IMG/VR virus record: IMGVR_UViG_3300042147_000038
Span: 1 to 30,105 of that record
DNA from: a virus
Reading direction: 5' to 3' (one strand)
DNA: 30,105 bases
Within the stretch, counting starts at the first letter, position 1; each line of letters opens with the position of its first letter. Of this stretch, positions 14,461 to 29,309 are shown one piece after another. The notes beneath the pieces were generated by a model that saw nothing but the letters and a program-made list of their open reading frames with translations, searched no databases and was not told the DNA's origin. The translations under genes and the position numbers were made by a program.

Positions 14461-15247
14461 TATCAAAACAGCAGAAAACAGCGTAAAGGATGTAGACACT
14501 ACTTCCCGCCGTGTTAAGGTCGTTATCTCTGAAATGATGAGTAAGGACCTGGACAATGATGTTATTGATATCAGTGCTTACGATAAAACCTTACAGGAAA
14601 GAGGCCCGAAAGGGAAAAGTTTGATATGGCACCTTACAGACCATTATCCTTCTTTAAAATTCGCTGTAGGCAAACCGTCAGAAATATTTGTAGATGGTCA
14701 GCAGTTGGTCATGATCACGGATATCCCAAAAACGCAATGGGGCAATGATATGTTAGAGTTTTATTCTAACGGGGCAATCAACCAGCACTCTATTGGGTTC
14801 AGGACTATTAAGAAAGAACCAATGCTTGCCGGAACTCCCGAGGAATACACTTTGATAAAAGAAATCCTTCTTTATGAGGGCTCAGCGGTGCTTTGGGGTG
14901 CTAATCCCAACACTCCTACCCTGTCCGTTGGTAAGTCTTTGAATAAGACTGAACTTACAAAAAGATATGAAACTTTAGAAAAATTAAAAACTTCAGGAAA
15001 CTTTAGTGACGAAATTTTTCCTATCTTAGATGCGCAGTTGAAAGAAACTCAACAGCAAATTGTCGATATCTTCTTACAAGATTCCAAATTCGAAACCACT
15101 CAGCCGATAGCACAGACTATCACTCAGCCGGACGTAAAGGACTTTGTAAAGCAAGTAGAAATACAAAATCTATTAACAGCTTTAAAAAGTTTAACATGCT
15201 CCGCAAATTCTATAACGCAACCGCAACAGATACGGGTGGTGACATAA
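14444..15247 (+). CDS. Prohead maturation protease (HK97/S78 family)
   Basis: A 267-residue serine protease that matures the prohead by trimming the capsid protein delta domain. Catalytic features are seen: LIWHLTDHYPS with His63 (or His67), the nucleophile Ser116 in NQHSIGF, and an acidic or His third member in EILLYEGSAVL. The N-terminal strand VKVVISEMMSKDLDNDVIDI is typical of the fold. After residue 165 it continues with a helical linker (KSLNKTELTKRYETLEKL) that may be a scaffold-like tail. The 52-bp overlap with the capsid gene suggests coupled translation of protease and its substrate. Confidence 0.9.
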   Translation: MKSFYDIKTAENSVKDVDTTSRRVKVVISEMMSKDLDNDVIDISAYDKTLQERGPKGKSLIWHLTDHYPSLKFAVGKPSEIFVDGQQLVMITDIPKTQWGNDMLEFYSNGAINQHSIGFRTIKKEPMLAGTPEEYTLIKEILLYEGSAVLWGANPNTPTLSVGKSLNKTELTKRYETLEKLKTSGNFSDEIFPILDAQLKETQQQIVDIFLQDSKFETTQPIAQTITQPDVKDFVKQVEIQNLLTALKSLTCSANSITQPQQIRVVT

Positions 15248-16431
15248 AACAAGCAACCGCCGCCGTTCTGGAAATGAAAACAGCACAGGAAACATTTCTT
15301 GCAGAACAAAAAAAAGCAGCCGAAACTGCAAAGGCAGAACTCGAGACAACAAAAGCCCAACTAAAAGAAACCCGTGATAACCTGGATAAGGTTATTAAAG
15401 CACAGGATACATTAATTGCTGAAGCCCAAAAGCAACAGTTAAACGTTCCCGGCGCCCCCTTATACGATCAACTTGGCAAAGCTTTGACCGAAAAAGAAGC
15501 TTTGTTGAAAGCATACAAAGAAGGAAGTGGCAAAGGTTTTACTATCCAGATGGATCGTAAGATAGCTGCTATCATGTCCTCTTCTGGCAATCTTACCGGA
15601 TCTTATTTTGTGGCTCCAACCGTGGTGCCGGGTGTGGTTCTTCAGCCTTATGAAGAGGTTCACATGCGAAACATCCTGCCTGTTGGCCAAACCAACTCTA
15701 ACGTTATCCGTTATGTTCGTGATAATGGTGGTGAAGGCGTTCCGACTACTGTAGCAGAGGGTGCAACTAAACCCTTAATTGATCGTGATCTGGAAATAAA
15801 AGATGCGCCTGTACGTAAGATCGCTTGCTACATGCGTGTGCCAGAGGAAATGATCGAAGATATTCCTTACCTGCAATCTTTCCTTACTCAGATCGGTATC
15901 GAGGAAGTAATGCTGGTTGAAGATGACCAGATACTCTATGGTAACAACGTAGGGCAAAACCTTCATGGTTTGATTCCAAACGCAACCGCTTTCGATACTG
16001 GTTTACTTGCTGCTGTAGATGCGCCGAATGAGTTCGATATTCTTCGTGCTGCAAGAACCCAGGGCAGGCTTGCAAAAAGACGTCCAACCGTCGCACTGGT
16101 TAACCCAGGTGACTATTACAATATGACTTCCCGCAAGGATAGTACTAACAACTACTTATTCCTTGGCGGTGGTAACGGCATTCAACCAGGCAGAAACGTT
16201 GACGGCTTAACAATCATTGACCATACTATTATTGAACCAGGCGATTGGCTCGTATTAGATCCAAGGGCCGCGGCAATCTTTGATCGTACCGGTATGTCAG
16301 TACGTTTCTATGACCAGGATCAGGATAACGCTATTAAGAACTTGATCACTATCGTTATTGAAAAGAGGTTGGCTTTGCCGATCTACTACACTAACGGTTT
16401 GATCACAGGAACTTTTGAGGCGGCAAGCTAA
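15196..16431 (+). CDS. Major capsid protein (HK97 fold)
   Basis: A 411-residue HK97-type capsid subunit. The N-terminal 20-85 is a coiled-coil delta/scaffold region (AAVLEMKTAQETFLAEQKK, AELETTKAQLKETRDNLDKV) that the S78 protease should remove near residue 115. The body shows GSYFVAPTVVPGVVLQPYEE, IRYVRDNGGEGVPTTVAEGA and the P-loop/A-domain strands (DWLVLDPRAAAIF, IVIEKRLALPIYY) typical of this group. It is the end of the capsid block: a GC hairpin follows it at 16439. The start ATG lies inside the 3' end of the protease gene; a later Met would remove the delta region. Confidence 0.93.
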   Translation: MLRKFYNATATDTGGDIKQATAAVLEMKTAQETFLAEQKKAAETAKAELETTKAQLKETRDNLDKVIKAQDTLIAEAQKQQLNVPGAPLYDQLGKALTEKEALLKAYKEGSGKGFTIQMDRKIAAIMSSSGNLTGSYFVAPTVVPGVVLQPYEEVHMRNILPVGQTNSNVIRYVRDNGGEGVPTTVAEGATKPLIDRDLEIKDAPVRKIACYMRVPEEMIEDIPYLQSFLTQIGIEEVMLVEDDQILYGNNVGQNLHGLIPNATAFDTGLLAAVDAPNEFDILRAARTQGRLAKRRPTVALVNPGDYYNMTSRKDSTNNYLFLGGGNGIQPGRNVDGLTIIDHTIIEPGDWLVLDPRAAAIFDRTGMSVRFYDQDQDNAIKNLITIVIEKRLALPIYYTNGLITGTFEAAS

Positions 16432-16463: not shown

Positions 16464-16601
16464 ATGAAGCCTGAGCAAAGTCATATTCCCAAAAAAGAGC
16501 AAGCCCATCAGCCCAAGCAAGAGATTTCCCATAAGAAAAAAAAGAAGGTAAAACCTGTTTCAAAACGTGAGTTACCGCCGAATATACAACCTCATACATG
16601 A
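16464..16601 (+). CDS. Possible 45-aa basic, proline-rich protein
   Basis: Hand-translated: ATG 16464, TGA 16599-16601. It is rich in Lys, Pro, Gln and His (HIPKKEQAHQPKQEISHKKK), disordered, with no core. It overlaps the connector gene's GTG start by 35 bp. A/T-rich leader (ccctATTATTATG). Short disordered basic peptides at this point of the head module occur in some phages, but chance coding cannot be excluded. Confidence 0.4.
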   Translation: MKPEQSHIPKKEQAHQPKQEISHKKKKKVKPVSKRELPPNIQPHT

Positions 16602-17400
16602 TATAGCTGATATCAGTGATGAATCAGATATCATAACTGAGCCGGTAACGGTTGCGGAGATGAAAAACTTTATGCGGTTGGAAGGTTTTTGGCCGGATGA
16701 AGAAAACGGTATTGATATACGGGAACCTTTTGCGTTGACTTTACTAGAAGGCGAGACAACGGTTCAAAGTGCTTTACTTATCGGGTCAACTATAACCACT
16801 CTTTCAAGAGAGGGAACGGTTTACACTAAAGTTGTGGGTGTGCCAGGCAACAGAGAGTTTGCTCACAATAACACAACAGGTGTAGTTACCTTTTTAAACG
16901 AAGGCGAAGCCGGCGGAGAAGTGATTGATATCGCTTACGGTATAGAAACAGAAGGCGGCAATAATTCTTTTATTCTTGATGATACATTGATAGAGGAAAT
17001 GATCACTGCATCCCGGGAAAGATTGGAAAAATGGTTAGGGCTATCAATTATCCCGCATACCTGGGAAGTATTATTTACCAACCTGGCCGGAGAGATTGAA
17101 TTTCCTTATTCTAATAATATGGCAATCGTTTCGCTGAAAGATTCAGACGATGAGGATATAGAGGAAGAAGATTATTTACTACGAGGAACCACAGATAAAC
17201 GGCTAATCCGTCCCCTATTTGAAAACATGACTATTGTTTATACGGCGGGTTTTGACACGGTGCCTAAAGCGATTAAACAGGCAATCATGCGGGATGTGTT
17301 GTTTCATTACGAGAATAGGAATGATGGCGATAAGGACAGGGTTAATAATGCTTTTGAGATAGCAATAAAGTATAAAAGAGTTTCAACATGGTTGGCCTAA
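16567..17400 (+). CDS. Head-tail connector (gp6-like) with inserted domain
   Basis: A 277-residue protein of the HK97 gp6/adaptor family. The usual connector elements are present but split: an N-terminal helix (TEPVTVAEMKNFMRLEGF, 24-41) and, after an ~80-residue insertion, the second helix (DDTLIEEMITASRERLEKWL, 138-157), the strand HTWEVLFTNLAG and the C-terminal helices (KAIKQAIMRDVLFHYENR). Family members are normally 90-190 residues, and the insertion (about 50-130) accounts for the extra length. The insertion resembles a domain found in two tail-tip proteins of this phage (see findings). Its start is GTG; it overlaps the next gene by 13 bp. It should sit between portal and head closure. 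Confidence 0.85.
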   Translation: MSYRRIYNLIHDIADISDESDIITEPVTVAEMKNFMRLEGFWPDEENGIDIREPFALTLLEGETTVQSALLIGSTITTLSREGTVYTKVVGVPGNREFAHNNTTGVVTFLNEGEAGGEVIDIAYGIETEGGNNSFILDDTLIEEMITASRERLEKWLGLSIIPHTWEVLFTNLAGEIEFPYSNNMAIVSLKDSDDEDIEEEDYLLRGTTDKRLIRPLFENMTIVYTAGFDTVPKAIKQAIMRDVLFHYENRNDGDKDRVNNAFEIAIKYKRVSTWLA

Positions 17401-17714
17401 GAAAACCTATACAGATAATATCTGTAGCTCCTGAGAAGGAAGAAAGCACAGGATTAATGAAACCGGCCGAAACAGTTCTTTATTCAGGGTGGGCAGAAGT
17501 CTCGAATCCAAGTAGTAACAGGAATTATTTTGTCGGTCAGGATTCGATGGAGCATACCAAGTTCTTTAAAATACGCCATAACATGGGTATAACATCCGAC
17601 GTAAACACACGGCTGATATATTCCGGTAAAAGGTACACAGTGAACAGTATTGAAAGGGATAAGGAGAAAAAGTTTTATTGGATTATTAGGGCCACGGCAA
17701 AAACGGATAACTGA
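17388..17714 (+). CDS. Head closure / head-tail joining protein
   Basis: A 108-residue protein of the phage head-tail joining family (HK97 gp7/SPP1 gp16-like small beta-barrel). Features: LRKPIQIISVAPEKEE, TVLYSGWAEVS, FFKIRHNMGITSDVNT and RLIYSGKRYTVNSIE, ending with the strand FYWIIRATAK. It seals the DNA channel after packaging and is the tail docking surface. Thirteen-base overlap with the connector gene and shared bases with the next gene (TGATG) show tight operon structure. Confidence 0.85.
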   Translation: MVGLRKPIQIISVAPEKEESTGLMKPAETVLYSGWAEVSNPSSNRNYFVGQDSMEHTKFFKIRHNMGITSDVNTRLIYSGKRYTVNSIERDKEKKFYWIIRATAKTDN

Positions 17715-18301
17715 TGTTTAAGATAAAAACAACAGGATTTCAGGATTTGATTGATAGGCTTTCAAAAGCTCCGGATAAGATTGTTAAGGAAGTCGATGGA
17801 GTGTTTCAGGATGTTGCTGAAAAGTTTGTTGGCAGGGCTAAAAAAGACGCTCCGAAAGACACAGGTAATGCAGGATTAACAGGACAGATAAGTTACAGGA
17901 AGGAAGGTGAGTTGAAGTATAATATATTCTCTGGATCAAGATACGCTGGTTATTTGGAGTTTGGAACGAAAAGAAATTTTACTCCTATTCCTGGATTTGA
18001 AAAAGAGGCTGCCGAAATAAAAGGTTTAGGTGGTGGTGGAAGTGCCGAAGAGGCGATAGAGAATATTAAAGCATGGGTATTAAGAAAAGGAATAAGATTT
18101 CAAGATGCTACGAAATATAAAAGCGGTAAAAAGAAGGGGCAGCACAGGTTGTTAGATCCGGAAACAACTGCATATATTATTTGGCATTTTATAAACATAA
18201 ACGGAATAAAACCGAAGCCATATTTTTTTAAACAGGTGGCTATTGCAGAAGGACAGTTGGAAAAAGATTTAAAACAGATCGCAGAAGAAATTTTTGATTG
18301 A
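17714..18301 (+). CDS. Tail-completion protein, HK97 gp10-like
   Basis: A 195-residue member of the HK97 gp10/tail-completion (gpZ-type) family. The conserved opening TTGFQDLIDRLSKAP, the motif APKDTGN, then GYLEFGTKRNFTPIPGF and the C-terminal KPKPYFF (INGIKPKPYFFKQ) are characteristic. The middle carries a Gly-rich loop (IKGLGGGGSAEEAI) and a longer than average helical insert. It joins the tail tube to the head. It shares one base (TGATG) with the following gene. Confidence 0.85.
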   Translation: MFKIKTTGFQDLIDRLSKAPDKIVKEVDGVFQDVAEKFVGRAKKDAPKDTGNAGLTGQISYRKEGELKYNIFSGSRYAGYLEFGTKRNFTPIPGFEKEAAEIKGLGGGGSAEEAIENIKAWVLRKGIRFQDATKYKSGKKKGQHRLLDPETTAYIIWHFININGIKPKPYFFKQVAIAEGQLEKDLKQIAEEIFD

Positions 18302-18750
18302 TGAGAAACTTTGTAGGTGATCTTATAATTGCTTATTACCAGTGTTTGAATGGTAATATAACCTACGGAGGGCAGGAAGTGAATGTTTATAATGTTGGAG
18401 TTGATGCAAATGATAAGTTTCATTATATCCAGCTCAGGCCGGAAAGCGAATCAGATGTAAGCAATAAAAGTTCTTTTGTTACCAGCCCGATAGTAGTGAT
18501 GGATATAGTAACAGTTCACGAAGGTTCGATAGATGCCAGTGTAGTGGAAGAAATAGACGATCAGGTAAGGCAATTGATTTTCACGGCAAGGAATACAGTG
18601 GGCATAGTTGTGAATGATGATTTTCAATTGCTCAATGTGATTGCTCAAAACAGTTCTTACCTGGATGGATTCGACGGTACGAGGCATGAATTCAGGAAGA
18701 TAACACGGTTTGTAAACAGGATTAATCAGTTTCAAAATAATATAAGCTAA
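18301..18750 (+). CDS. Tail terminator protein candidate
   Basis: A 149-residue protein between the gp10-like and tail tube genes, the usual place of the tail terminator. It has an alpha/beta order of the gpU/DUF3168-like fold: N-terminal helix (NFVGDLIIAYYQCLNGN), strands VNVYNVGV, YIQLRPES and IVVMDIVTVHEG, a helix EEIDDQVRQLI and last strand. Sequence identity to the known family is not obvious, so position carries most of the weight. I place the start at 18301 (ATG overlapping the previous stop as TGATG); the preceding TTG is less likely. Confidence 0.65.
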   Translation: MRNFVGDLIIAYYQCLNGNITYGGQEVNVYNVGVDANDKFHYIQLRPESESDVSNKSSFVTSPIVVMDIVTVHEGSIDASVVEEIDDQVRQLIFTARNTVGIVVNDDFQLLNVIAQNSSYLDGFDGTRHEFRKITRFVNRINQFQNNIS

Positions 18751-18768
18751 CAATTAAACTTAAATAAA

Positions 18769-19209
18769 ATGGCAACAGAAATTCAGGGTATTGATGACAT
18801 ATTCGAAGTTCGTGAGGTCGGTGAAGAGGATTGGCTCAGGCTTGTTTGTGAAGTCGACAACTCTGCCGAAATGGACAACGAAGTATCTGAGACAGATACC
18901 AAGTGTGGAACATTCGTAGGCGTAAAGGAAATGAAAGGAAATTTTTCTGGTAACGCTGTGAGTAATGCCACTCCAACTTCTTCTGAGGCTTCTTATGAGC
19001 AGGTAGTAGCCTGGCAGAAAGCAACAACATTGCTCGAGTTTAGAAATTATAACGCCGCCTTTGGTGCTATTGCTGAGAGTGCTGCTTATCATTTCGAAGG
19101 GCAGGGCAGATTTACGAACACAAACAAGAGTTCTGCCAGCGGTGAAGTTGTTCAGTTTTCATGGACACTGTCACCAAGTGGAGAAATATTCTTAACGCCA
19201 CAATCGTAA
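18769..19209 (+). CDS. Major tail tube protein
   Basis: A 146-residue all-beta protein right before the tail chaperone and tape measure, so it is the tail tube subunit that stacks as hexamers. Strand-rich segments DWLRLVCEVDNSAEM, GVKEMKGNFSGNAVS, LLEFRNYNAAFG and FTNTNKSSASGEVVQ fit the tube fold. The leader CTTAAATAAAATGGC is a strong A-rich initiation context, and an 18-bp gap separates it from the previous gene, in line with high expression. Three bases separate it from the next gene. Confidence 0.8.
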   Translation: MATEIQGIDDIFEVREVGEEDWLRLVCEVDNSAEMDNEVSETDTKCGTFVGVKEMKGNFSGNAVSNATPTSSEASYEQVVAWQKATTLLEFRNYNAAFGAIAESAAYHFEGQGRFTNTNKSSASGEVVQFSWTLSPSGEIFLTPQS

Positions 19210-19211
19210 TC

Positions 19212-19568
19212 ATGAAAAAAATAAAGCTCTCCGTCGCAGGGCAGGAAGTCGTTTGCAATTTCGGCGTGAATTATTTCTATAAACATTTTTATGAAATAAC
19301 CGGCACTGATATGCTAGTTGATGGCCTAAAAGAATTAGCCAGCGTAAAAATGTTTTCTCTTGTTCCGGCTATTTATTGCGCCGGGTATTTTGCAGAATGC
19401 AGCTTAAAAAAGGAAGAGCCTAAAATAAGTAAAGCTGATTTTGAATCTCATATTTTAAGTATGGATGAGAAAGGGGCTGCAGATATGCTGAACGATTATT
19501 TGAATGAGATAAACCCAAAGGAGGAAACTAAAGAGGGGGAGGAAATAGCCCAAACGGTGAACCCTTAA
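19212..19568 (+). CDS. Tail assembly chaperone (G-like)
   Basis: A 118-residue protein between tail tube and tape measure, the place of the lambda gpG chaperone that coats the tape measure. It begins KKIKLSVAGQEVVCNFGVNY (strand-rich) then is helical (ASVKMFSLVPAIYCAGYFAE, SKADFESHILSMDEKG) and ends in an acidic tail (KEETKEGEEIAQ). I use the ATG at 19212; upstream in-frame starts lie inside the tube gene. The 3' end overlaps a -1-frame extension (next entry), so two products are expected, as in lambda G and GT. Confidence 0.8.
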   Translation: MKKIKLSVAGQEVVCNFGVNYFYKHFYEITGTDMLVDGLKELASVKMFSLVPAIYCAGYFAECSLKKEEPKISKADFESHILSMDEKGAADMLNDYLNEINPKEETKEGEEIAQTVNP

Positions 19569-19891
19569 CATGGGATGAGGTTCGAAAGATAGCGTTTGGG
19601 CGATTAGTAATACTGCCGCATGATTTTTATTCGATGGATATAGATGATGCGGCTTTGATGTATCAGGGATGGGGTGATCAGATGCTTTATGATCAACAAA
19701 TAGCACGAAAAGTGACAATGATTATTTCGGATGTAGTAAATAAGAGCATGGGCGGTAAAGGGGTGATGAAAAAGAGTAAGGATATATGGCCTTTACCAGG
19801 TGATGAACGAAAAATAAAAACTTCTCATTTAGAACTGTTGAAAAAGTTTAAAGAATTGGATTTAAAAAAGGGTGTGAATGGCAAACGCTGA
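19532..19891 (+). CDS. -1-frame extension of tail chaperone (GT-like T domain)
   Basis: An open -1 frame relative to the chaperone runs from after a stop at 19529-19531 to TGA 19889-19891. Its first part, GEPLTWDEVRKIAFGRL then VILPHDFYSMDIDDA, looks like the start of a real T domain but has no start codon before the ATG at 19634. This is best explained by a -1 ribosomal frameshift between about 19532 and 19565 giving a GT-like fusion. The run of five Gs at 19535-19539 (GAG GGG GAG in the zero frame) is a candidate but non-canonical slip site. Later segments include WGDQMLYDQQIARK and a basic end (LLKKFKELDLKKG). It overlaps the tape-measure start by 14 bp. Confidence 0.65.
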   Translation, partial: RGGGNSPNGEPLTWDEVRKIAFGRLVILPHDFYSMDIDDAALMYQGWGDQMLYDQQIARKVTMIISDVVNKSMGGKGVMKKSKDIWPLPGDERKIKTSHLELLKKFKELDLKKGVNGKR

Positions 19892-21716
19892 ATTAAATGT
19901 CATACTTAGTGCGGAAGGAAAGCAGCTTTCAGCTACGATGCAGAAGGCCGAAAAGGATGTGCAAGGACTTGAAAAAGAATTGGCATCATTAAAACCGGCA
20001 TTTGACCAGGTTGATAAGTCTGTTACTAAATCGGCTTCTACCCTTAAATCAGCAGCTTCAGCTACCAATCAATTTGTAAAAGGGGTAAAATTATCAGATG
20101 AGGCATTAAAGAAATTACAGCCATCCTCTAACGCCTCAGCTCAATCACTATTAAACCTGGGAAGGGTTGCACAGGATGCGCCATTTGGTATTTTAGGTAT
20201 AGCTAATAACATAAATCCATTACTGGAATCATTTCAAAGATTACAGAAGGAAACAGGATCTACAAAAACCGCTTTGAAGTCATTGGTATCAGGATTGACC
20301 GGTGCCGGTGGTTTGGGGCTTGCTGTCTCTGTTGTTTCTTCTTTACTGATAGTTTTTGGTGATAAATTATTTGGTGCTAAGGAAGCATCTAAGGCGTCAG
20401 AAGAGGCGCTCAGAAGTTTTGGCGAAGCGTTGGAAGGCGTGAAGGATGGAGTAAAATCTTTAAGCGATGAACTGCAATTTACAAATCAATTAGGTGGTAT
20501 AAATGTAAAAATTCGTGGCGGTGGCGATGTTCAGGATTTACTAGAGCAATCGGTTGCGCAACGGGTGAAGACAACTAAACTAGAAGCACAACGTGATAAA
20601 TTAAAAAGTATTGGCGATCAGATTGCAAAAAATACCGAGCTAAGCGATAAAGACAGGATTGATGCTGAAATCAAATATTTTGATTCACTAAAGAGTATTA
20701 ATTCTGAGATAATAAAAAGTGAACAAGATCAATCAATCATTTACAGGAGGATTGCACTTCAAAGAGTTGAGGATTTAAAGAAAGCTAATGAAGATGCTTT
20801 AAAACTTAACGACAAATTTATTGATGATACCATTGCAAGAGCAAAGAGGTTATCGTCATTTATCAATAAAACTACTATTCGTTTCGCTCCTTTCGAGTTA
20901 GATCCTGAAACTACAAAGTTTGAGCAATTCAAAGAGGCATTAAATTTTATCCAAAGAGGGTTAAATGACCGTTCCTCGTTTTCTATTAAGCCACAGGTAT
21001 TAGTTGAAAACCCTGTACTGATTAAGTCACAGGCCTACTTTGCTTCACTGGCAAAAGAAGCGGAAGGAATGTTTAAAGATATCCAAGAGGAGATAAATAA
21101 ATTAACCAAGCGTAATCCAATTATAATACGGGCTGAAAGAGTAGAGGTTACAGAAAAGGCAAGAGGTGCTGAATTCTTTCAATCACTGGGTATTGCCAGC
21201 GCAGATGAAAACGCCCCACAAAGTTTACTAACAGACACACAAAAAGCGGCGGTCAATCTTGCCGGAGTAATGAATCAAACCGTAATTCCTGCTTTCAATG
21301 GTTTATTTGACGCTATTAAAGCCGGGGAGAACCCTATCAAAGCTTTCTTCCAAAGTTTAGGCCAGGCATTGCAGCAATTAATACAGAAGTTGATACAAGC
21401 AGCTATTCAAGCACTTATATTAAGCGCCATCACCGGAGGCTCTACGTCATTCGGCAAGGCTTTTAAGTCTATTATCGGATTCAAGGCTGAAGGTGGGCCG
21501 GTATTCGCCAACAAACCTTATGTAGTGGGTGAACGTGGGCCCGAGTTATTCATTCCCCAAGGCGGCGGGAAGATAATTCCAAATAATGAAATGAATTCAG
21601 GACTTCAGGGAATAACAGGCGGTATGCAGAATTTAAGATTATCGGCCGTGTTAAGAGGTTCAGACTTGGTTTTATCAAACAACAGGACTTTCCGGTCACA
21701 AAACAGAAACGGTTAA
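19878..21716 (+). CDS. Tape measure protein
   Basis: A 612-residue protein that sets tail length (roughly 90 nm by the ~1.5 angstrom per residue rule) and is likely ejected with DNA. It is largely helical: an N-terminal coiled coil (LSATMQKAEKDVQGLEKELA), a hydrophobic membrane-like segment around residues 138-163 (SGLTGAGGLGLAVSVVSSLL), charged helices (ELSDKDRIDAEIKYFDSL), a second hydrophobic patch near 490-525, and the family's C-terminal motif GGPVFANKPYVVGERGPELF. It is short for a tape measure (often over 700 residues). It overlaps the next gene as TAATG. Confidence 0.9.
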   Translation: MANAELNVILSAEGKQLSATMQKAEKDVQGLEKELASLKPAFDQVDKSVTKSASTLKSAASATNQFVKGVKLSDEALKKLQPSSNASAQSLLNLGRVAQDAPFGILGIANNINPLLESFQRLQKETGSTKTALKSLVSGLTGAGGLGLAVSVVSSLLIVFGDKLFGAKEASKASEEALRSFGEALEGVKDGVKSLSDELQFTNQLGGINVKIRGGGDVQDLLEQSVAQRVKTTKLEAQRDKLKSIGDQIAKNTELSDKDRIDAEIKYFDSLKSINSEIIKSEQDQSIIYRRIALQRVEDLKKANEDALKLNDKFIDDTIARAKRLSSFINKTTIRFAPFELDPETTKFEQFKEALNFIQRGLNDRSSFSIKPQVLVENPVLIKSQAYFASLAKEAEGMFKDIQEEINKLTKRNPIIIRAERVEVTEKARGAEFFQSLGIASADENAPQSLLTDTQKAAVNLAGVMNQTVIPAFNGLFDAIKAGENPIKAFFQSLGQALQQLIQKLIQAAIQALILSAITGGSTSFGKAFKSIIGFKAEGGPVFANKPYVVGERGPELFIPQGGGKIIPNNEMNSGLQGITGGMQNLRLSAVLRGSDLVLSNNRTFRSQNRNG

Positions 21717-23989
21717 TGCCAATAGGACGCTACTATACGATAGAATTTAAGAACGTTGAAGATATCCTCGTTAAGGTTCTTATTGGAGATAAGACAATAG
21801 ACGCCGAAACTCCGGAGATCATTCCTTTACAACCTTCTGGGAGCCCGTTAATACTATCCACATTTGATAACGATGAGGCGAAGTTCACCCCGATAAAAGG
21901 ACAAAAAGCACAGATAACTTTTTTAAGTAATGAACAGTATTCATTAGAGACATTTTCCGATGGTGCTGACGATCGTTTTGATGTTACTATTTTATACGGA
22001 ACGACAATAGTTTTTTATGGCTTTCTTTCCCTGGCTGATAACTCAGAATTATTTGTCAGTGGCAGGAATGAAGTAGTATTAACCGCTAACGATAAGTTAG
22101 GCGCTTTAAAAGATATTCCGCTTACTGATTTTGACGGCGTAAACCCGATAGGGAAATATAAGATCGGTGAATTAATCGCCATGTGCCTGCAAAAAACGGG
22201 ACTTAGTTTACCCCTGAGAGTAATCAATAATTTACGGCATGGCACCGGAGCAATAACTGTTTCTCTGACTGATACAACTTTTACGGCCGGAACCAATATG
22301 ATTACTTTAGGGGCTACCTATAATGGTTTTTTCTATAACGGGCAGCGGCTTTTAGTATCTGGAACGGTTTCGAATAACATAGAATTTACTGTCTCAGGTG
22401 TGGGGCTTTTGCTTGTTACTTTCCTGGTAAGCAGTGAAGATTTAGTAAACGAAACGGCAAGCAACGTAACATTTACCGACGTAACGGGGCTTGATCATAT
22501 TTACCACGGCATTTATTTAGATGCAAAGACATTTGAAGATGAGATTGGTGTAAGTGAGAATTGTTACGATGTACTGAAAAAGATTTTAGGCTATGATTGT
22601 TTTTTAACTCAGTACAAAGAATGTTGGTGGATTTGCCGGATAGACGAGTATGATAGTAATCCTTTTTATGTATCACGTTTTGATGAAAACGGGGTGTATG
22701 TAGATAGTTATGTAGAAACAAATTTATCTAAAACTATCGGTAGAGATCAGGAACATTGGTTTGAAGGGGAAGCGACAATAGTACAACCAACCAGGCCGGT
22801 CGGGTTCGCAAAACTTACGTACACGTTTGATTATCCTGAAGAAATTGTTTGCAATCAGGATTTTTCGAGAGGTACAGGAGATGAGCCAACCGACACAATC
22901 CCTTCCGAAACTATTATATACGATCCTGAGTGCTGGGAGTTTTACGCCAACCATTTTGATGGCTCCGCATGGACTGACGGAACGCCACAAGCCGGGGCAA
23001 GAGGAGAGTTGGTTAAGCTGTTTGAATATGGCTATGAGAAAGACAGGTATATGCTCATCGAACATGAAGACGTTAGTGGTGGTGACGAAGTGCATTATTT
23101 CAAAAGCGCCGCTATTGACATGAGGCGAGGAGATAAAATTAATTTATCCGTTGATTTTAAGATAGAGGGCGTTTCTGGATTAACGTCTTTAAACCCTATG
23201 CAGGTGACTTTAATTCCTCACGATGGATCAGATCCTTGGTATTGGGAGTTAGACACCGCTTCAAATGTTAATCAATGGGTACAGCGTGCAACGCCAACAA
23301 CTAATCCGTTTTCTACGACAATAAGATGGCAGGGTACGAATAGCGATGAGTTTCAAAATGTCGGAGGCGAATCTTTGCCGCTTCCTACCAGTGGATTTTT
23401 ATACGTTCAGTTGAGTACCAACTTCAACATATTTGCCCCTTATATTTTTACAAATCTCCAGTTCACATATATACCGTTTATTAATGGCTCGTATAGGGTT
23501 TACAACGGTCGGCATGAAAAGGTAACCAGAACAGAACCCGGATACTTAGGAAATGTAGATGATGATGTTTTCATATCAGATGCAGAAGTAAAATTGTTTA
23601 AGGGTGCAATGTTTTTCCTAGCTGACGGCATTTATCAATTAACAGTAAAATGGTATAACGCCGCCCTATTTGCGCTTGGATATCCAACAGATTTAAGCAT
23701 GGTAAAACCTTTCGGGAATCATCAAGCCTATGCCGTTTGGAATCAGTACAGGCTAGCTAATAGAATTTTTCAATACCAGTTTCAGGATTTCGGGGCAGAT
23801 ATCCCCTCCCTGGTACATAAGTTTTCAATCTCTGATTTTTCAAGCCACAGTAATGACAGATACTTTTTGATGCTGACAAAAGAAGCCGATTTGATGCTGT
23901 GCAATATGACCGGAACATTAGAACAGGTTTATCATACGACAGAAGGGAAAGACTATGACAGTGATCACGAATTCAAATATATAAGTTAA
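21716..23989 (+). CDS. Tail hub/tip protein (Bacteroidota phage type)
   Basis: A 757-residue protein right after the tape measure, in the place of the distal tail/hub protein. Residues 1-135 are strand-rich and Dit-like (RYYTIEFKNVEDILVKVLIG, TILYGTTIVFYGFLSL). Residues 140-175 and 260-310 form one domain (GKYKIGELIAMCLQKTG, DCFLTQYKECWWICRID) interrupted at about 177-258 by a Thr/Val-rich Ig-like insert. The C-terminal part (390-620) has a carbohydrate-binding-like beta sandwich (GARGELVKLFEYGYEK, INLSVDFKIEG). I have seen this architecture only in hypothetical Bacteroidota phage proteins, so hub is inferred from position. Confidence 0.7.
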   Translation: MPIGRYYTIEFKNVEDILVKVLIGDKTIDAETPEIIPLQPSGSPLILSTFDNDEAKFTPIKGQKAQITFLSNEQYSLETFSDGADDRFDVTILYGTTIVFYGFLSLADNSELFVSGRNEVVLTANDKLGALKDIPLTDFDGVNPIGKYKIGELIAMCLQKTGLSLPLRVINNLRHGTGAITVSLTDTTFTAGTNMITLGATYNGFFYNGQRLLVSGTVSNNIEFTVSGVGLLLVTFLVSSEDLVNETASNVTFTDVTGLDHIYHGIYLDAKTFEDEIGVSENCYDVLKKILGYDCFLTQYKECWWICRIDEYDSNPFYVSRFDENGVYVDSYVETNLSKTIGRDQEHWFEGEATIVQPTRPVGFAKLTYTFDYPEEIVCNQDFSRGTGDEPTDTIPSETIIYDPECWEFYANHFDGSAWTDGTPQAGARGELVKLFEYGYEKDRYMLIEHEDVSGGDEVHYFKSAAIDMRRGDKINLSVDFKIEGVSGLTSLNPMQVTLIPHDGSDPWYWELDTASNVNQWVQRATPTTNPFSTTIRWQGTNSDEFQNVGGESLPLPTSGFLYVQLSTNFNIFAPYIFTNLQFTYIPFINGSYRVYNGRHEKVTRTEPGYLGNVDDDVFISDAEVKLFKGAMFFLADGIYQLTVKWYNAALFALGYPTDLSMVKPFGNHQAYAVWNQYRLANRIFQYQFQDFGADIPSLVHKFSISDFSSHSNDRYFLMLTKEADLMLCNMTGTLEQVYHTTEGKDYDSDHEFKYIS

Positions 23990-24684
23990 TGGAGCCTATA
24001 CATGGAAAGGATTGTTTACTGAGTATAAAGATTGAGGAAGAATTCTATCCGGTATTGTGTGCGGTTGATATGACTTTTTCATGCAGGCAGGAGGTTCTTT
24101 TAGCTACATCGGTGGATTCCGGGAACTGGAGATATAAGAAGCTGAGAAATATATCAGAGTGGAATGTATCAGTATCAGGACTAACAAAAATTGATAACAC
24201 AGATGGACAGGTTAGTTTTTTTTATCTGTTACAGCAAAACATAAGAGGCTCAGAGCAGATCATTCAAATAATGTTCGAGGATTCAAACGGGAACATACAA
24301 GTATTAGAAGGAACGGTTTTAATCCCTGAATTGAGTATAAACGCAAACGTGGGTTCGTTTGCTGACGCTACGATCAGTTTTGAAGGTACGGGGCCGGTTG
24401 AAATAACAGAACCTGTTAGTGATGTAGAGAGTGATATCTGCGAAGATTTGGTTAGCGATACATGGGATGTTGTGGCCACAGAAACATCCATAAGTGGTGC
24501 AGGGCAAGAGGGTAAATCTTTTGCGGGTAAAGAGATTTTAGAAGTTGACAGGTCGGGCATGGTACATAGTTACACAAGCGGAATACCTGGAAACATGGAA
24601 TATGCTTACAACGGGACTGAGATTTCATTTGATCCAACAAATCCATTTAATGATGGTGAAACAATTTTTGTTCTCTGGAAATGA
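23989..24684 (+). CDS. Second tube-like tail protein with C-terminal extra domain
   Basis: A 231-residue protein just after the hub. Residues 1-140 have the tail tube order of strands and the motif SCRQEVLLATSVDSGNWRYK with the loop SEWNVSVSGLTKI and FADATISFEGTG; in the same relative places the tail tube gene (18769) has SETDTKCGTFVGVKEMKGNF. It could be a tube-initiator ring on the hub. Residues 175-231 are a separate ~55-residue domain (RSGMVHSYTSGIPGNMEY, ending GETIFVLWK) shared with the connector and the next gene. It overlaps the next gene by ATGA. Confidence 0.6.
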   Translation: MEPIHGKDCLLSIKIEEEFYPVLCAVDMTFSCRQEVLLATSVDSGNWRYKKLRNISEWNVSVSGLTKIDNTDGQVSFFYLLQQNIRGSEQIIQIMFEDSNGNIQVLEGTVLIPELSINANVGSFADATISFEGTGPVEITEPVSDVESDICEDLVSDTWDVVATETSISGAGQEGKSFAGKEILEVDRSGMVHSYTSGIPGNMEYAYNGTEISFDPTNPFNDGETIFVLWK

Positions 24685-25517
24685 CAACGAGTAAAACATA
24701 TCTGATGGCGGCGGGGCTAAATTATATTCAGAGCAGCGAAATAGTATATACAGAAGTGTATGTAGTTAAGCGGGACGGGTTACAGTATGATAAATACATT
24801 TTAGGAGGATCAACTGAAAGGAAATATACTTATGTGGCTTCAGAGGGGAAGATATATTTTCCTATAGAAGCAAATCCAGGGGGCGAGAACGTTTTTGTGT
24901 TATTTAAAAAGACAACTTTTGTTCCCGATCCTGTTCCCGGCATTTGCACACCCGTTACGATTGAAGATAGCGACATGCCGGATGCTGTGGTTAATGTATC
25001 TTATTCAAAATCGTTCCCTTTAAATGGCACCTCTCCATTTACTTTAAATGTCATTCAAAAACCTACTTGGGCAGCAGTTAATATTAGTCTTTTTGGAGTG
25101 GTTACAGTAATGGGCTTCCCTGATGTGGCAGGGCCGGAAACGTTAGAGTTCTCGGTTAGTAATTGCGGAGGTAGCGCACCCACTGTTTTGCACACGTTCG
25201 ACACGCTTGCAAATTCTGATAATCTATTTATACATAGCTACTCATACTCTAAAATACAGTCAGTTTCCGGCGTATCATATACAATTACGTCAGGGTCTTT
25301 TCCTGTTTTTTTGCCAAAAAATACTCTTCGGGGAATTCATAACGGGTACATAGGTATTATCGCTGTTGTTGTGGGTACGATCATATTCCCAAGATTATTA
25401 AACCTAACTGTAAACGGGAGTTTAGCGGAATCTATTCCTGTTCCAACTAATGGAACTTATTATTTTTCTTCTCAAACTTATTTATCAACTGATATAATTC
25501 AGATAATATTAAACTAA
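24681..25517 (+). CDS. Tail-tip protein with shared domain and Ig-like domain
   Basis: A 278-residue protein. Residues 20-76 are the shared domain (RDGLQYDKYILGGSTERKY, ending GENVFVLFK). Residues 90-165 look like a He_PIG/bacterial Ig-like domain (VNVSYSKSFPLNGTSPF, TVMGFPDVAGPETLEFSVSN), and the C-terminal 100 residues are strand-rich with a hydrophobic patch (GYIGIIAVVVGTIIFP). Ig-like domains on tail proteins commonly bind surface sugars. No catalytic residues seen. It is adjacent to and overlaps (ATGA) the tube-like gene that carries the same domain at its end, and ends as TAATG into the secreted fibre gene. Confidence 0.6.
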   Translation: MTTSKTYLMAAGLNYIQSSEIVYTEVYVVKRDGLQYDKYILGGSTERKYTYVASEGKIYFPIEANPGGENVFVLFKKTTFVPDPVPGICTPVTIEDSDMPDAVVNVSYSKSFPLNGTSPFTLNVIQKPTWAAVNISLFGVVTVMGFPDVAGPETLEFSVSNCGGSAPTVLHTFDTLANSDNLFIHSYSYSKIQSVSGVSYTITSGSFPVFLPKNTLRGIHNGYIGIIAVVVGTIIFPRLLNLTVNGSLAESIPVPTNGTYYFSSQTYLSTDIIQIILN

Positions 25518-27436
25518 TGAAAAAGATAATTATTATACTACTCCTTTTTTCTGCGATAAGTGCCGAAGCTCAAACCGGGTACACTCTTATAAACACTCGT
25601 TACCACTGGCTAGCTGGGATATTTAAGGCACTAGGATTGCCCGCAGGAGGCAATGCGGCATTTACGGCGGGACAGGCTCAGCAAGCGGGATCGGTTTATT
25701 ACGATTCTACAGGTGCTGATGCAGGTTTATATATTTGGAGTGGGTTGGCCTGGGTGAAAGCAAATTACACCGATGCGCAAGCCCGGGCCGCTATCTCATT
25801 AACCACTACCGGAACAAGCGGGGCTGCAACATATAACAGTGGAACGGGGGTGTTTAATATTCCGCAATATTCAGGAACAACGAACACAAACGTAGGGGCT
25901 TTTTACCGGTGGCTGAAACCTGATGCTCAGGAAATAAAAACATTCGCAGCGGGAACAGGAGTTCTTATTGATAGTACTACAAATACAGATGCGTTGACAT
26001 TGAATTTAGATTCGTTGTATTGGGCAAATAGAGATTGGGTAACAGATAGGATTGCTGATATAGAAAACGGTAATCTTCTTTTTGATTCATTGGGCGCTGC
26101 TGGTATATCTCCAATGACAACCTGGAATAACACATTATATGCAAGACGTATTTCAATATCCGGAGGATCTATTGATACCACAGCAAGCGGGGGGTTACTT
26201 ATAACAGTCGCAGGCGCTGGTGTCACTTCGCTTGCCGCCGTAGGATCAGCACCTAACGCTAATGGCGCTACTATTTCGGGAAGTACATTAAATCTTGAAC
26301 CCGCATCTGTATCATTCCCAGGTGTAGTAACTACAGGATCTCAAGTATTTGCGGGTAATAAATTTATTGGTGCCGATGCGTATGCTGGTACAGATGGGAC
26401 TTTTAATGTATCTACATCCAGTGTGTTTGGCGCAGGTGCTGGATCCTCTGAATTAACAATAACTAATTCTAACACTACAACAGGGTTAGCTTCGATAGTA
26501 TTTAGAAATAATGCAGGAAGTTCTAAAGCTCTTATAAGGTGGTTTAATTCTGCCAACTCGTCTACAATAGCGGGGATCGGGTTGGGCGATGCCTTGGTTT
26601 TTACAAATGGTACTTCCGGGAAGCCGATTATGTTAAGCGCAAATGCAGGCCCTATATATCTTGCCCCAAATAATACATCACCGGTATTGACCGCTGTAAA
26701 CGCTGGACAGGTTGGGTTGAATAAAATTACGTCACCTACTGCATGGCTTCATTTACCAGCGGGAACGACAGCGGCAAGCACAGCACCGTTTAAATATACT
26801 TCAGGATCATTACAAACAACTGCCGAAGTTGGTGCTAAAGAGTTTTTAACCGACAAAGAATACTTGACTATTACGACAGGTGCTGCACGAAAGGAAATTA
26901 CATTAAATGACATAGCATTGACTTCTGGAAGAATACCATTTGTAACCACAAACGGAAGATTAACGGACGTATCAACTGTTTTATGGGATGGAACTACAGC
27001 TACTTTTCCTTTACTTAAAATGACAGGCGGGTCGCCAGGTGCCGGGAAAGTATTAACCTCCGATGCAGACGGTGATGCGACATGGACAACAGCTACTAAG
27101 CCGACACTTACAAAAAATTTAATGCTTGAAAATCCGACAGCATCGGAAAACATTTTCATATTCAGAACACCCGTTGCAATAACGGTTACGGATGTTACGG
27201 CGGTACTGGTCGGCGGTTCTCCTTCCGTTACTTACAATGTTGCATTTGGAACGGATAGAACAAGCGGCACAAATGTATATACAGCGGGGCAAACCGTCAC
27301 CAGTGAGACAACAGGAACGGCGGCAAGCGGAGTAAATGACGCAACTATTCCGGCGGGTAGTTGGGTATGGGTTACTACTTCGGCAGCAACAGACGTAACG
27401 CAATTAAATATTTCACTGACCTATACCGAAGATTAA
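25517..27436 (+). CDS. Fibre/adhesin-like protein with Sec signal peptide
   Basis: A 639-residue protein that starts with a clear signal peptide (MKKIIIILLLFSAISAEAQ; cleavage after AEA/Q expected). The rest has the low-complexity, Thr/Gly/Ala-rich repeats of tail fibres: TTGTSGAATYNSGTGVFNIP, YTDAQARAAIS, GAGKVLTSDADGDATW and many 6-15-residue beta repeats. The C-terminal 100 residues form a defined beta domain (FIFRTPVAITVTDV, VWVTTSAATDVTQLNI). This matches fibre proteins of Bacteroidota phages except for the export signal. It overlaps its neighbours as TAATG. Function: receptor binding or surface protein, not settled. Confidence 0.75.
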   Translation: MKKIIIILLLFSAISAEAQTGYTLINTRYHWLAGIFKALGLPAGGNAAFTAGQAQQAGSVYYDSTGADAGLYIWSGLAWVKANYTDAQARAAISLTTTGTSGAATYNSGTGVFNIPQYSGTTNTNVGAFYRWLKPDAQEIKTFAAGTGVLIDSTTNTDALTLNLDSLYWANRDWVTDRIADIENGNLLFDSLGAAGISPMTTWNNTLYARRISISGGSIDTTASGGLLITVAGAGVTSLAAVGSAPNANGATISGSTLNLEPASVSFPGVVTTGSQVFAGNKFIGADAYAGTDGTFNVSTSSVFGAGAGSSELTITNSNTTTGLASIVFRNNAGSSKALIRWFNSANSSTIAGIGLGDALVFTNGTSGKPIMLSANAGPIYLAPNNTSPVLTAVNAGQVGLNKITSPTAWLHLPAGTTAASTAPFKYTSGSLQTTAEVGAKEFLTDKEYLTITTGAARKEITLNDIALTSGRIPFVTTNGRLTDVSTVLWDGTTATFPLLKMTGGSPGAGKVLTSDADGDATWTTATKPTLTKNLMLENPTASENIFIFRTPVAITVTDVTAVLVGGSPSVTYNVAFGTDRTSGTNVYTAGQTVTSETTGTAASGVNDATIPAGSWVWVTTSAATDVTQLNISLTYTED

Positions 27437-28593
27437 TGAAAAAACTTGTAATCATATTATCGTTATTCCCATTTTCGCTGAATGCCCAGATTGTACAAAT
27501 AAATGGAACAGGTAGAACGGTTACTATCAACGCACCTGGAAAACCTTCATCGGTCAGCATAACCCAACCTTCCGAACCACCGGAACCGGATTATTTTGAT
27601 CCGCAATCCGGGGATATAACCTTTACAGACGAACATTTTCAATATTCTATTCCGGGTTATGCAGGATCAGGATATACGGCAAGGAGTTCTGCCGGGTTTG
27701 TGGAATTCCGTACAAGCGAGACGAGTATTAGCGTCAAAGTAGGCGGGAACTGGTCTACTGCCAGCAGTGCGTTTGATGAACAAAGCGATTGTGAAGTATT
27801 AGTAAACGGCGTGTATAATCAATCCGTGAGATTGACCGTCGATAACACGACACAAACCTATGCCATCTCGTTGCCTGTTGGCGAAAAGATAGTACGGCTT
27901 GTGAATGGGTACACTGCCAACGGGAATAACCTGTTACCCGGAAATGGCGTTTTTGTACAAGGCGTAGTAACTATAGGGAATGTCGAAATAAAAATTCCGG
28001 TAACGCCAATAAATAAAAAATTATTTATCGGAAATTCTATAACAACCGGGGCTACCAGCACCCACCCTACTATTACTGGCTTTGCGGGGTTACTTAGAAA
28101 TATAGGATGGCAAATACAGATGGATTCATACGGAGGCAGGCGATTGTTAACCACTTCGGCGGCATTAGGCGATGACATGGCTGAATTTATTTCGGATGAA
28201 ATGAACGGCACTATTACTAATGAGGTGTTTATGTTTTTAGGCACTAATAATTTTGCTCTATTTGGAGGACACAGTAAAGCAAATTTTAAACTGTATTACG
28301 GTTACTTTTTAGATGCTCTTCACACGTTACGATCTGATATAACTATTTATTGTATTTCACCATTTAATAGGGACACATATAGCACCCCTAATTCGCAAGG
28401 CGCAACATGCGAAGATTATGCAGATGCTATAGAAGAGCTTTTAGTGACAAGGACGTGGGCGAAGTTTATTTACGGCAAAGACGCTGTAAGCCTTGCTAAC
28501 ATGGTAGATAGTCCGAGAGTGCATCCAAACCAAGCCGGTCATCAACAAATAAGTGAATATATAGAAGCACAATACAATCTATTAAATCCATGA
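27436..28593 (+). CDS. Secreted SGNH esterase (CE2-like)
   Basis: A 385-residue protein: signal peptide MKKLVIILSLFPFSLNAQ, a beta sandwich (about 50-185, ITFTDEHFQYSIPGYAG, CE2-N-like), and an SGNH hydrolase (195-380). Block I is FIGNSITTG (Ser201), block II Gly near 233-234, block III FLGTNN (Asn271) and the catalytic His363 in DSPRVHPNQAGH. The usual Asp three residues before that His is replaced by Pro361, with Asp358 five before. Such enzymes remove acetyl groups from polysaccharide, fitting a depolymerase or de-esterase on host capsule. I use the ATG at 27436 (TAATG overlap), the start that carries the signal peptide. It overlaps the next gene by ATGA. Confidence 0.85.
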   Translation: MKKLVIILSLFPFSLNAQIVQINGTGRTVTINAPGKPSSVSITQPSEPPEPDYFDPQSGDITFTDEHFQYSIPGYAGSGYTARSSAGFVEFRTSETSISVKVGGNWSTASSAFDEQSDCEVLVNGVYNQSVRLTVDNTTQTYAISLPVGEKIVRLVNGYTANGNNLLPGNGVFVQGVVTIGNVEIKIPVTPINKKLFIGNSITTGATSTHPTITGFAGLLRNIGWQIQMDSYGGRRLLTTSAALGDDMAEFISDEMNGTITNEVFMFLGTNNFALFGGHSKANFKLYYGYFLDALHTLRSDITIYCISPFNRDTYSTPNSQGATCEDYADAIEELLVTRTWAKFIYGKDAVSLANMVDSPRVHPNQAGHQQISEYIEAQYNLLNP

Positions 28594-29309
28594 AAAAAAT
28601 TTTATTAATACTGTTTCTTTTCCCTCTCTTATTGCAGGGGCAGATAGTATATACCGCTTTAACCGAACAAAATTCAAATTCAGTAACCACCACTTTCAAC
28701 ACTCCGTCTTACACCCCTACTACCGGAGCTTTAGTCTTAGCATTTGTTACAAGTGCAAAAGCAACTACTCCCGATATTCCAACCTTTTCAGGTAACGGGT
28801 TGACATGGGTACAAATTGAAACGGAAACGTTGGATGTTATAGCTACACCTACAAAAAGAATAACTGCATTCAGGGCAATGGGTACAGCATCAACAGGAGC
28901 GGCGACAGCCACTTTTGCGAATGCACAGGATGGCTGCCAAATTATTATCCTTCAGTTTACGGGAACAGATATAAGCGGGTCAAACGGAAGCGGGGCAATT
29001 GTGCAGGCGGTAAAAAGCAATGCTGATGCAACGTCAAATCCGTCAATAACTATGGGCGCTATTTCAAGCGTAACAAATTCGGTTGTTGCTTTTTATGCAA
29101 CAGACGATGCTAATATAATCACAGCACCGGAAGCCGGTTGGACGCCAACGACAAATGTAAATAGAAGCGTCCCTGATGCACAGCTTTATGGAGAGTACCG
29201 GTTAACGACAACCGATAATACGCCAACTGTTACAGCAGCCTCAAGCGATTGGGCTGGGATCGCAATTGAAATAAAATCAGTAGCACGAAGGAGAATAATT
29301 ATTGATTAA
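28590..29309 (+). CDS. Secreted beta-rich adhesin-like protein
   Basis: A 239-residue protein with signal peptide MKKILLILFLFPLLLQGQ, then an all-beta body rich in Thr, Ala and Ser: ALVLAFVTSAKATTPDIP, LTWVQIETETLDVI and the helical or strand segment ITAFRAMGTASTGAATATF. Periodic NITAPEAGWTP-type loops resemble concanavalin-like or tail collar domains. No enzyme motif seen. It is the third consecutive protein with a Sec signal, overlapping the esterase by ATGA. Confidence 0.65.
   Translation: MKKILLILFLFPLLLQGQIVYTALTEQNSNSVTTTFNTPSYTPTTGALVLAFVTSAKATTPDIPTFSGNGLTWVQIETETLDVIATPTKRITAFRAMGTASTGAATATFANAQDGCQIIILQFTGTDISGSNGSGAIVQAVKSNADATSNPSITMGAISSVTNSVVAFYATDDANIITAPEAGWTPTTNVNRSVPDAQLYGEYRLTTTDNTPTVTAASSDWAGIAIEIKSVARRRIIID

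Follow-up and report, generated by a model that had tools for sequence, protein, structure and literature searches.

A small beta domain common to three virion proteins of a putative Bacteroidota phage, with a proposed docking role

We found that three virion proteins encoded in the window (the whole 30,105-base virus record that was analysed) carry copies of a single small domain, hereafter the module. The head-tail connector holds the module as an insert, a tube-like tail protein ends with it, and the tip protein encoded by the next gene begins with it. Judged by sequence and profile comparison, the three segments are one sequence family, a beta domain of about 75 residues. We estimate a probability of roughly 0.58 that the three copies represent one small beta-jellyroll-like domain working as a plug-in docking module in virion assembly. 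The module carries no family name but is well delimited, and its history can be traced: it is fixed at the tail tip and has apparently moved between connectors as an insert.

Three copies of one domain

The genes and module copies concerned are as follows, with the gene names of the window assigned partly from position.

15196-16431: capsid
16567..17400, + strand: head-tail connector (gp6-type adaptor), 277 aa, with inserted module; PHROG 442, RcGTA adaptor fold
16714..16947, + strand: module copy in the connector, residues 50-127; from the alignment of 15 connectors and model strands 55-127
18769..19209, + strand: major tail (tube) protein without module, for contrast; PHROG 1407 E 1.3e-5, PHROG 238 E 3e-4
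19878-21716: tape measure
21716-23989: hub-like protein
23989..24684, + strand: tube-like protein, 231 aa, with a tail-tube domain (about residues 3-144) and a C-terminal module
24454..24681, + strand: module copy ending the tube-like protein, residues 156-231; from the model and all 8 relatives
24681..25517, + strand: tip protein, 278 aa, with N-terminal module, middle region and C-terminal domain
24681..24914, + strand: module copy starting the tip protein, residues 1-78; profile comparison with tube copies 99.2%
25251..25514, + strand: C-terminal domain of the tip protein, residues 191-278, common only to the tip protein of relative L005

The gene order runs from the capsid through the connector, a small adaptor, a gp10-type protein and a tail completion protein to the major tail protein, and continues with two small genes, the tape measure, the hub-like, tube-like and tip genes and a group of secreted-like genes. 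The tube-like and tip genes adjoin with a start/stop overlap. The tube-like protein scores above the curated cut-off of PF06199 Phage_tail_2 (26.7 bits vs 23.8) and matches the PHROG 1407 major tail protein at E 3e-14. It was noted that this genome encodes two PHROG 1407 major-tail-type proteins, whose genes lie upstream of the tape measure and downstream of the hub-like gene, respectively; the second of these (23989-24684) may form a tail-tip ring. The three genes after the tip gene (25517-27436, 27433-28593 and 28590-29309) possess signal-peptide-like starts (MKK, a hydrophobic run and AQ), and one of them matches a GDSL lipase/acylhydrolase (Pfam E 1.5e-10). A similar start, unusual for virion proteins, was encountered in the gene following the module in L096, L098, L099 and L104. 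Larkinella genomes contain two relatives of the capsid and a Ferruginibacter MAG contains a third, which suggests a Bacteroidota host; the window would represent an uncultured tailed phage of this phylum.

Pairwise alignment scores of the three segments were compared with those of 1000 shuffles per pair, giving 74 vs 26.6±4.8 for connector and tube, 63 vs 24.9±4.4 for connector and tip, and 48 vs 23.9±4.2 for tube and tip; in each pair, 0 of the 1000 shuffles reached the observed score. In a search of this genome, the tip module as the sole query matched the connector segment at E 0.0018. The module profile matched exactly three places in the window (E 1e-28, 2e-27 and 4e-22, these rows being part of the profile), and the major tail protein at 18769-19209 was not matched by it. 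Stronger sequence evidence than this profile search is an independent pair, in which residues 52-113 of the window connector match the tube-like protein of relative L104 with 43% identity over 62 residues (BLAST E 8e-9). Profile-profile comparison of tube copies (n = 9), next-gene copies (n = 7) and connector inserts (n = 2) gave 99.2% for tube vs tip, 94.5% for tube vs connector and 94.4% for tip vs connector. In the same program, none of seven control alignments (five further virion proteins, the tube domain, and the beta domain native to the connector) reached 1%.

The resemblance might be put down to convergence or to a beta-strand motif arising by chance, since the motif is short and since glycine turns and alternating hydrophobics are recurrent in beta proteins. 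Against this stand the shuffle tests, the profile comparison with its negative controls, and the 43% identity that the connector insert of the window shows to a tube-like protein from a different phage, so that this explanation is already disfavoured and appears extremely improbable.

A sequence-only reading of this DNA had proposed a domain of about 55 residues in the same three proteins. All six peptides that it quoted were found exactly at the residues and DNA coordinates claimed, and the shuffle tests, the profile-profile comparison and two structure models agree on one common domain. The placement that it gave was also borne out, inside the gp6-type connector, C-terminal in the tube-like protein and N-terminal in the tip protein. 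The profile comparison that it had put forward as a possible refutation found the three profiles matching each other. The proposed length was too short: according to the models and the alignment, the quoted motif is preceded by one or two strands, giving a domain of about 70-78 residues. The reading knew no named family for the domain, and in Pfam, PHROGs and NCBIfam we found no family that matches or covers it.

The tube copy (76 residues, 18-row alignment) was modelled with a pLDDT of 97.8 and a pTM of 0.86 as seven strands (2-5, 12-14, 28-33, 36-40, 49-52, 56-58 and 70-75). In the model of the whole connector (pLDDT 76.5, pTM 0.60), the insert comprises strands 55-59, 65-67, 74-81, 84-86, 98-101, 106-109 and 118-127. 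The two models have the same strand order with similar spacing, the connector at lower confidence, and match the same solved domains, among them TSP4 of CBA120 and Gp48 of phage B2. Phage neck, tail, fibre or tailspike proteins accounted for 27 of the 30 top-ranked rows of solved structures (Z >= 5) obtained with the tube module. With Z values that are middling (best 7.4), below the aligner's safe range and within reach of unrelated beta domains, the module matched CBA120 TSP4 residues 266-332 (XD3; Z 7.0) and 190-249 (XD2; Z 6.3), phage B2 Gp48 (Z 6.9), the DT57C and T5-portal-entry connectors (Z 6.5-6.7), the T7 gp17 N-terminus (7boz_b; Z 5.6, 63 residues, 2.8 A) and R4C tail chain G (8gtc_G residues 97-173; Z 5.3), while the connector insert matched 7rej residues 181-256 (Z 7.1) and 9d84_B (Z 6.9). 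Chain 8gtc_G was identified as Dit from the text of the R4C paper (PMC10276861). With Foldseek, the best PDB match had E 0.047, and a pair of viral models, one carrying the name head-tail adaptor, scored about 1e-4. Since middling Z values can arise without kinship, these matches are read as fold resemblance and not as membership; as modelled, the module resembles phage docking domains and is a predicted small beta-jellyroll-like domain.

Searches with the 18 copies led to no known family. Their profile found no match among PDB sequences at E up to 10, though TSP4 and T4 gp10 were included, and no relevant Pfam family at E up to 10, including the T7 tail fibre N-terminal family. Among the named phages of INPHARED, no relative of the tube-like proteins, the hub or the stand-alone module was found, with stray matches near E 1, and the connector gave one weak match (E 0.08). 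Across 395 Bacteroidota genomes, nine weak module matches were recorded (E 3e-4 to 0.01). These were set aside as probable chance, and the two that were read, a lipoprotein-like match (L087) and a small CcmE-like protein (L089), look cellular. An iterated profile that absorbed such loci drifted and was rebuilt without them.

Tail-tip conservation and the history of the connector insert

Searches of viral contigs with the tip protein and the tube-like protein alone at first recovered no relatives. The capsid served as the query instead, and relatives were then identified in virus contigs through alignments of the tube-like protein. Besides L003, a near-copy of the window (one base different in 4597), the module was found in L004, L005, L009, L018, L096, L098, L099 and L104, and it ends the tube-like protein in 8 of 8 of these relatives. 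The next gene encodes a bare module of about 90-104 residues in L004, L096, L098, L099 and L104, and a module followed by a long C-terminal extension in the window and L005 only. These two extensions have a common C-terminal domain (score 85 vs shuffles 29.5±4.9). The order of hub, tube-like protein with module, and module gene was encountered in the window, L096, L098, L099, L104, L005 and L004; beside the tube-like gene of L009 and L018, no stand-alone module gene was found. The module is fixed at the tail tip in every relative found; the sample is small (18 copies, obtained from virus-contig scans with short patterns), and absence of the module elsewhere counts for little as evidence.

Apart from the insert, the connector is a well-supported head-tail adaptor. 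It matches the PHROG 442 head-tail adaptor over residues 138-256 (E 6e-17) and TIGR02215 at E 1e-6, which is below the cut-off of that family, and its model aligns with the RcGTA adaptor 6toa_D at Z 15.1 over 171 residues. The window connector and that of L098 carry an extra stretch of about 75-80 residues, which separates the first helix (29-35) from the long helix (136-157) and is a clean insertion in 2 of the 15 aligned connectors. The other 13, including those of the close relatives L007, L096, L099, L005 and L004, lack it, and among the 46 connector sequences gathered it was present in the window, its near-copy L003 and L098 only. The absence of the insert from most relatives indicates that its role at the neck is dispensable. 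No gene in the virion region of the window was found to be common only to the other insert-bearing phage, as a partner gene would be.

In a connector tree built with the insert removed, the window grouped with L007 (87/83) and L098 with L096, L099 and L004 (95/91); these well-supported branches require at least two changes of insert state. In the module tree, the inserts pair as sisters in 94% of the bootstrap trees, with the tube copy of L104 beside them (93/91); the remaining branches are poorly resolved. Because the inserts are nearest kin and the connector backbones are not, the simplest reading is that the insert was probably transferred between connector lineages of different phages. An old gain followed by several losses may also account for this pattern.

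We considered whether the module descends from the beta domain that the connector itself possesses (residues 164-227) and rejected this, as the two are alike in fold only and the profile comparison gave 0.2-0.9%. The long connectors of L017 (10289-11107; also L018) and L036 (2271-3095) were likewise rejected as module carriers, since their added stretches differ in sequence and lie at other sites. This ring protein may often acquire extra domains. It was also noted that L115 (14323-19296, from the L104 record) contains, by eye, glycosyltransferase-like and methyltransferase-like ORFs between the capsid and the connector. One of these starts GGLGRMGNQMF, presumably like GT11 fucosyltransferases, and the ORFs could possibly be a virion glycosylation cassette inside the structural operon.

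Proposed docking role and alternative explanations

We infer the docking role and the binding partners of the module from its likenesses to known docking domains together with the gene layout. At the tail tip, the tube-like ring would offer its C-terminal copies as a seat for the protein encoded by the next gene, which is a module too, and in the window the extension on that module would likely be an adhesin anchored to the tube-like ring. At the neck, the extra copies would stand outside the connector ring, which is probably dodecameric, and may brace against the capsid or hold a neck appendage. In folds of this kind the first strand neighbours the last, which could have allowed the module to be inserted in a loop. 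Docking is weakened by the middling structural Z values, by the lack of a sequence link between the module and any solved domain, by the comparison of virion regions, which revealed no partner gene, and by the dispensable nature of the connector insert. The copies might further bind each other across proteins, so that one interface would be present on the neck and tail-tip rings and the same module-bearing adhesin or stand-alone module would dock at both tail ends. We regard this idea as doubtful; if it were true, a phage would gain neck appendages simply by acquiring the connector insert.

The module might instead be a displayed adhesive or glycan-binding decoration, added to several proteins and keeping the particle near the host. 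The sequence-only reading had suggested a decoration or glycan-binding module; adhesive display has been proposed for Ig-like domains on phage particles, and we consider it unlikely here while still deserving weight. The connector copy comes and goes among close relatives, as accessory decorations do, other connectors of the group (L017/L018 and L036) carry different extra stretches elsewhere, and some domains of carbohydrate enzymes occur towards the bottom of the list of fold matches; moreover, the authors of the R4C study speculate that its T7-fibre-like Dit domain binds saccharides (PMC10276861). However, the best fold matches are mostly docking or attachment domains and not lectins, and the tail-tip module is kept in every relative found, where its N-terminal position with the variable part behind it is the layout of an anchor and not of an adhesin head. 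Glycan binding by the module is possible, with nothing found that supports it specifically, and a decoration role may still apply to the neck copy, which most relatives lack.

The module could also stabilise each ring through contacts with its neighbours in the same ring, with no outside partner. Small beta domains that are C-terminal or inserted in loops can strengthen subunit contacts, and both host proteins are from ring-forming families, yet the stand-alone module gene beside the tube-like gene in all genomes but L009 and L018 would be left unexplained, and we judge this possibility rather improbable. Under the docking role that we favour, the window offers a naturally occurring example in which a docking-type domain has been spliced into a loop of a ring-forming structural protein. 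It also makes it possible to examine directly if appendages at the neck and at the tip share a single attachment interface.

Comparison with known systems

Several known systems place small beta domains on phage particles. Ig-like decorations (Big_2, I-set and FN3) resemble the module in being small beta domains that occur sporadically within virion proteins or at their ends, whereas none of the 18 module copies matches these Pfam families. The N-terminal anchor of T7 gp17 precedes a variable part, as the module does in the window tip protein. T7-type phages are podophages, whereas the window has a long-tail gene order with a tape measure and tube proteins, and the two domains show no sequence match.

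With regard to adaptor attachment domains, the module matches the beta part of the connectors of DT57C (48-109, Z 6.5), the T5-portal entry (Z 6.7) and N4 (58-152, Z 6.3). The attachment domain of the RcGTA adaptor binds the capsid (PMC7296036); the window connector, however, already has its own such domain (164-227). A further likeness is to XD2/XD3 of T4 gp10 and CBA120 TSP4, with counterparts in G7C gp66 and B2 Gp48, each a small beta domain of about 65-75 residues repeated as a virion module, which the tube copy matches at Z 6.3-7.0 (rmsd 1.9-2.1 A over 60-62 residues). In T4 gp10 and TSP4, these are protein-protein assembly domains that hold other virion proteins and have adjacent N- and C-strands (PMC8825819), and the structure of B2 Gp48 was determined along with that of the tailspike Gp49, its partner (PMC11654681). 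They differ from the module in showing no sequence match and in residing on baseplate or tailspike trimers, whereas the module is found on connector, tube-like and stand-alone proteins.

Finally, the siphophage R4C carries extra beta domains on both its neck ring and its distal tail ring, as proposed here for the window. Its adaptor has an extra peripheral Ig-like domain that contacts the capsid, and the insertion domain of its Dit is reported to be similar to the T7 fibre N-terminus (PMC10276861). Unlike the connector insert, the R4C adaptor domain is N-terminal and is not reported to be related to the Dit domain, whereas the window copies, by sequence comparison, are one family.
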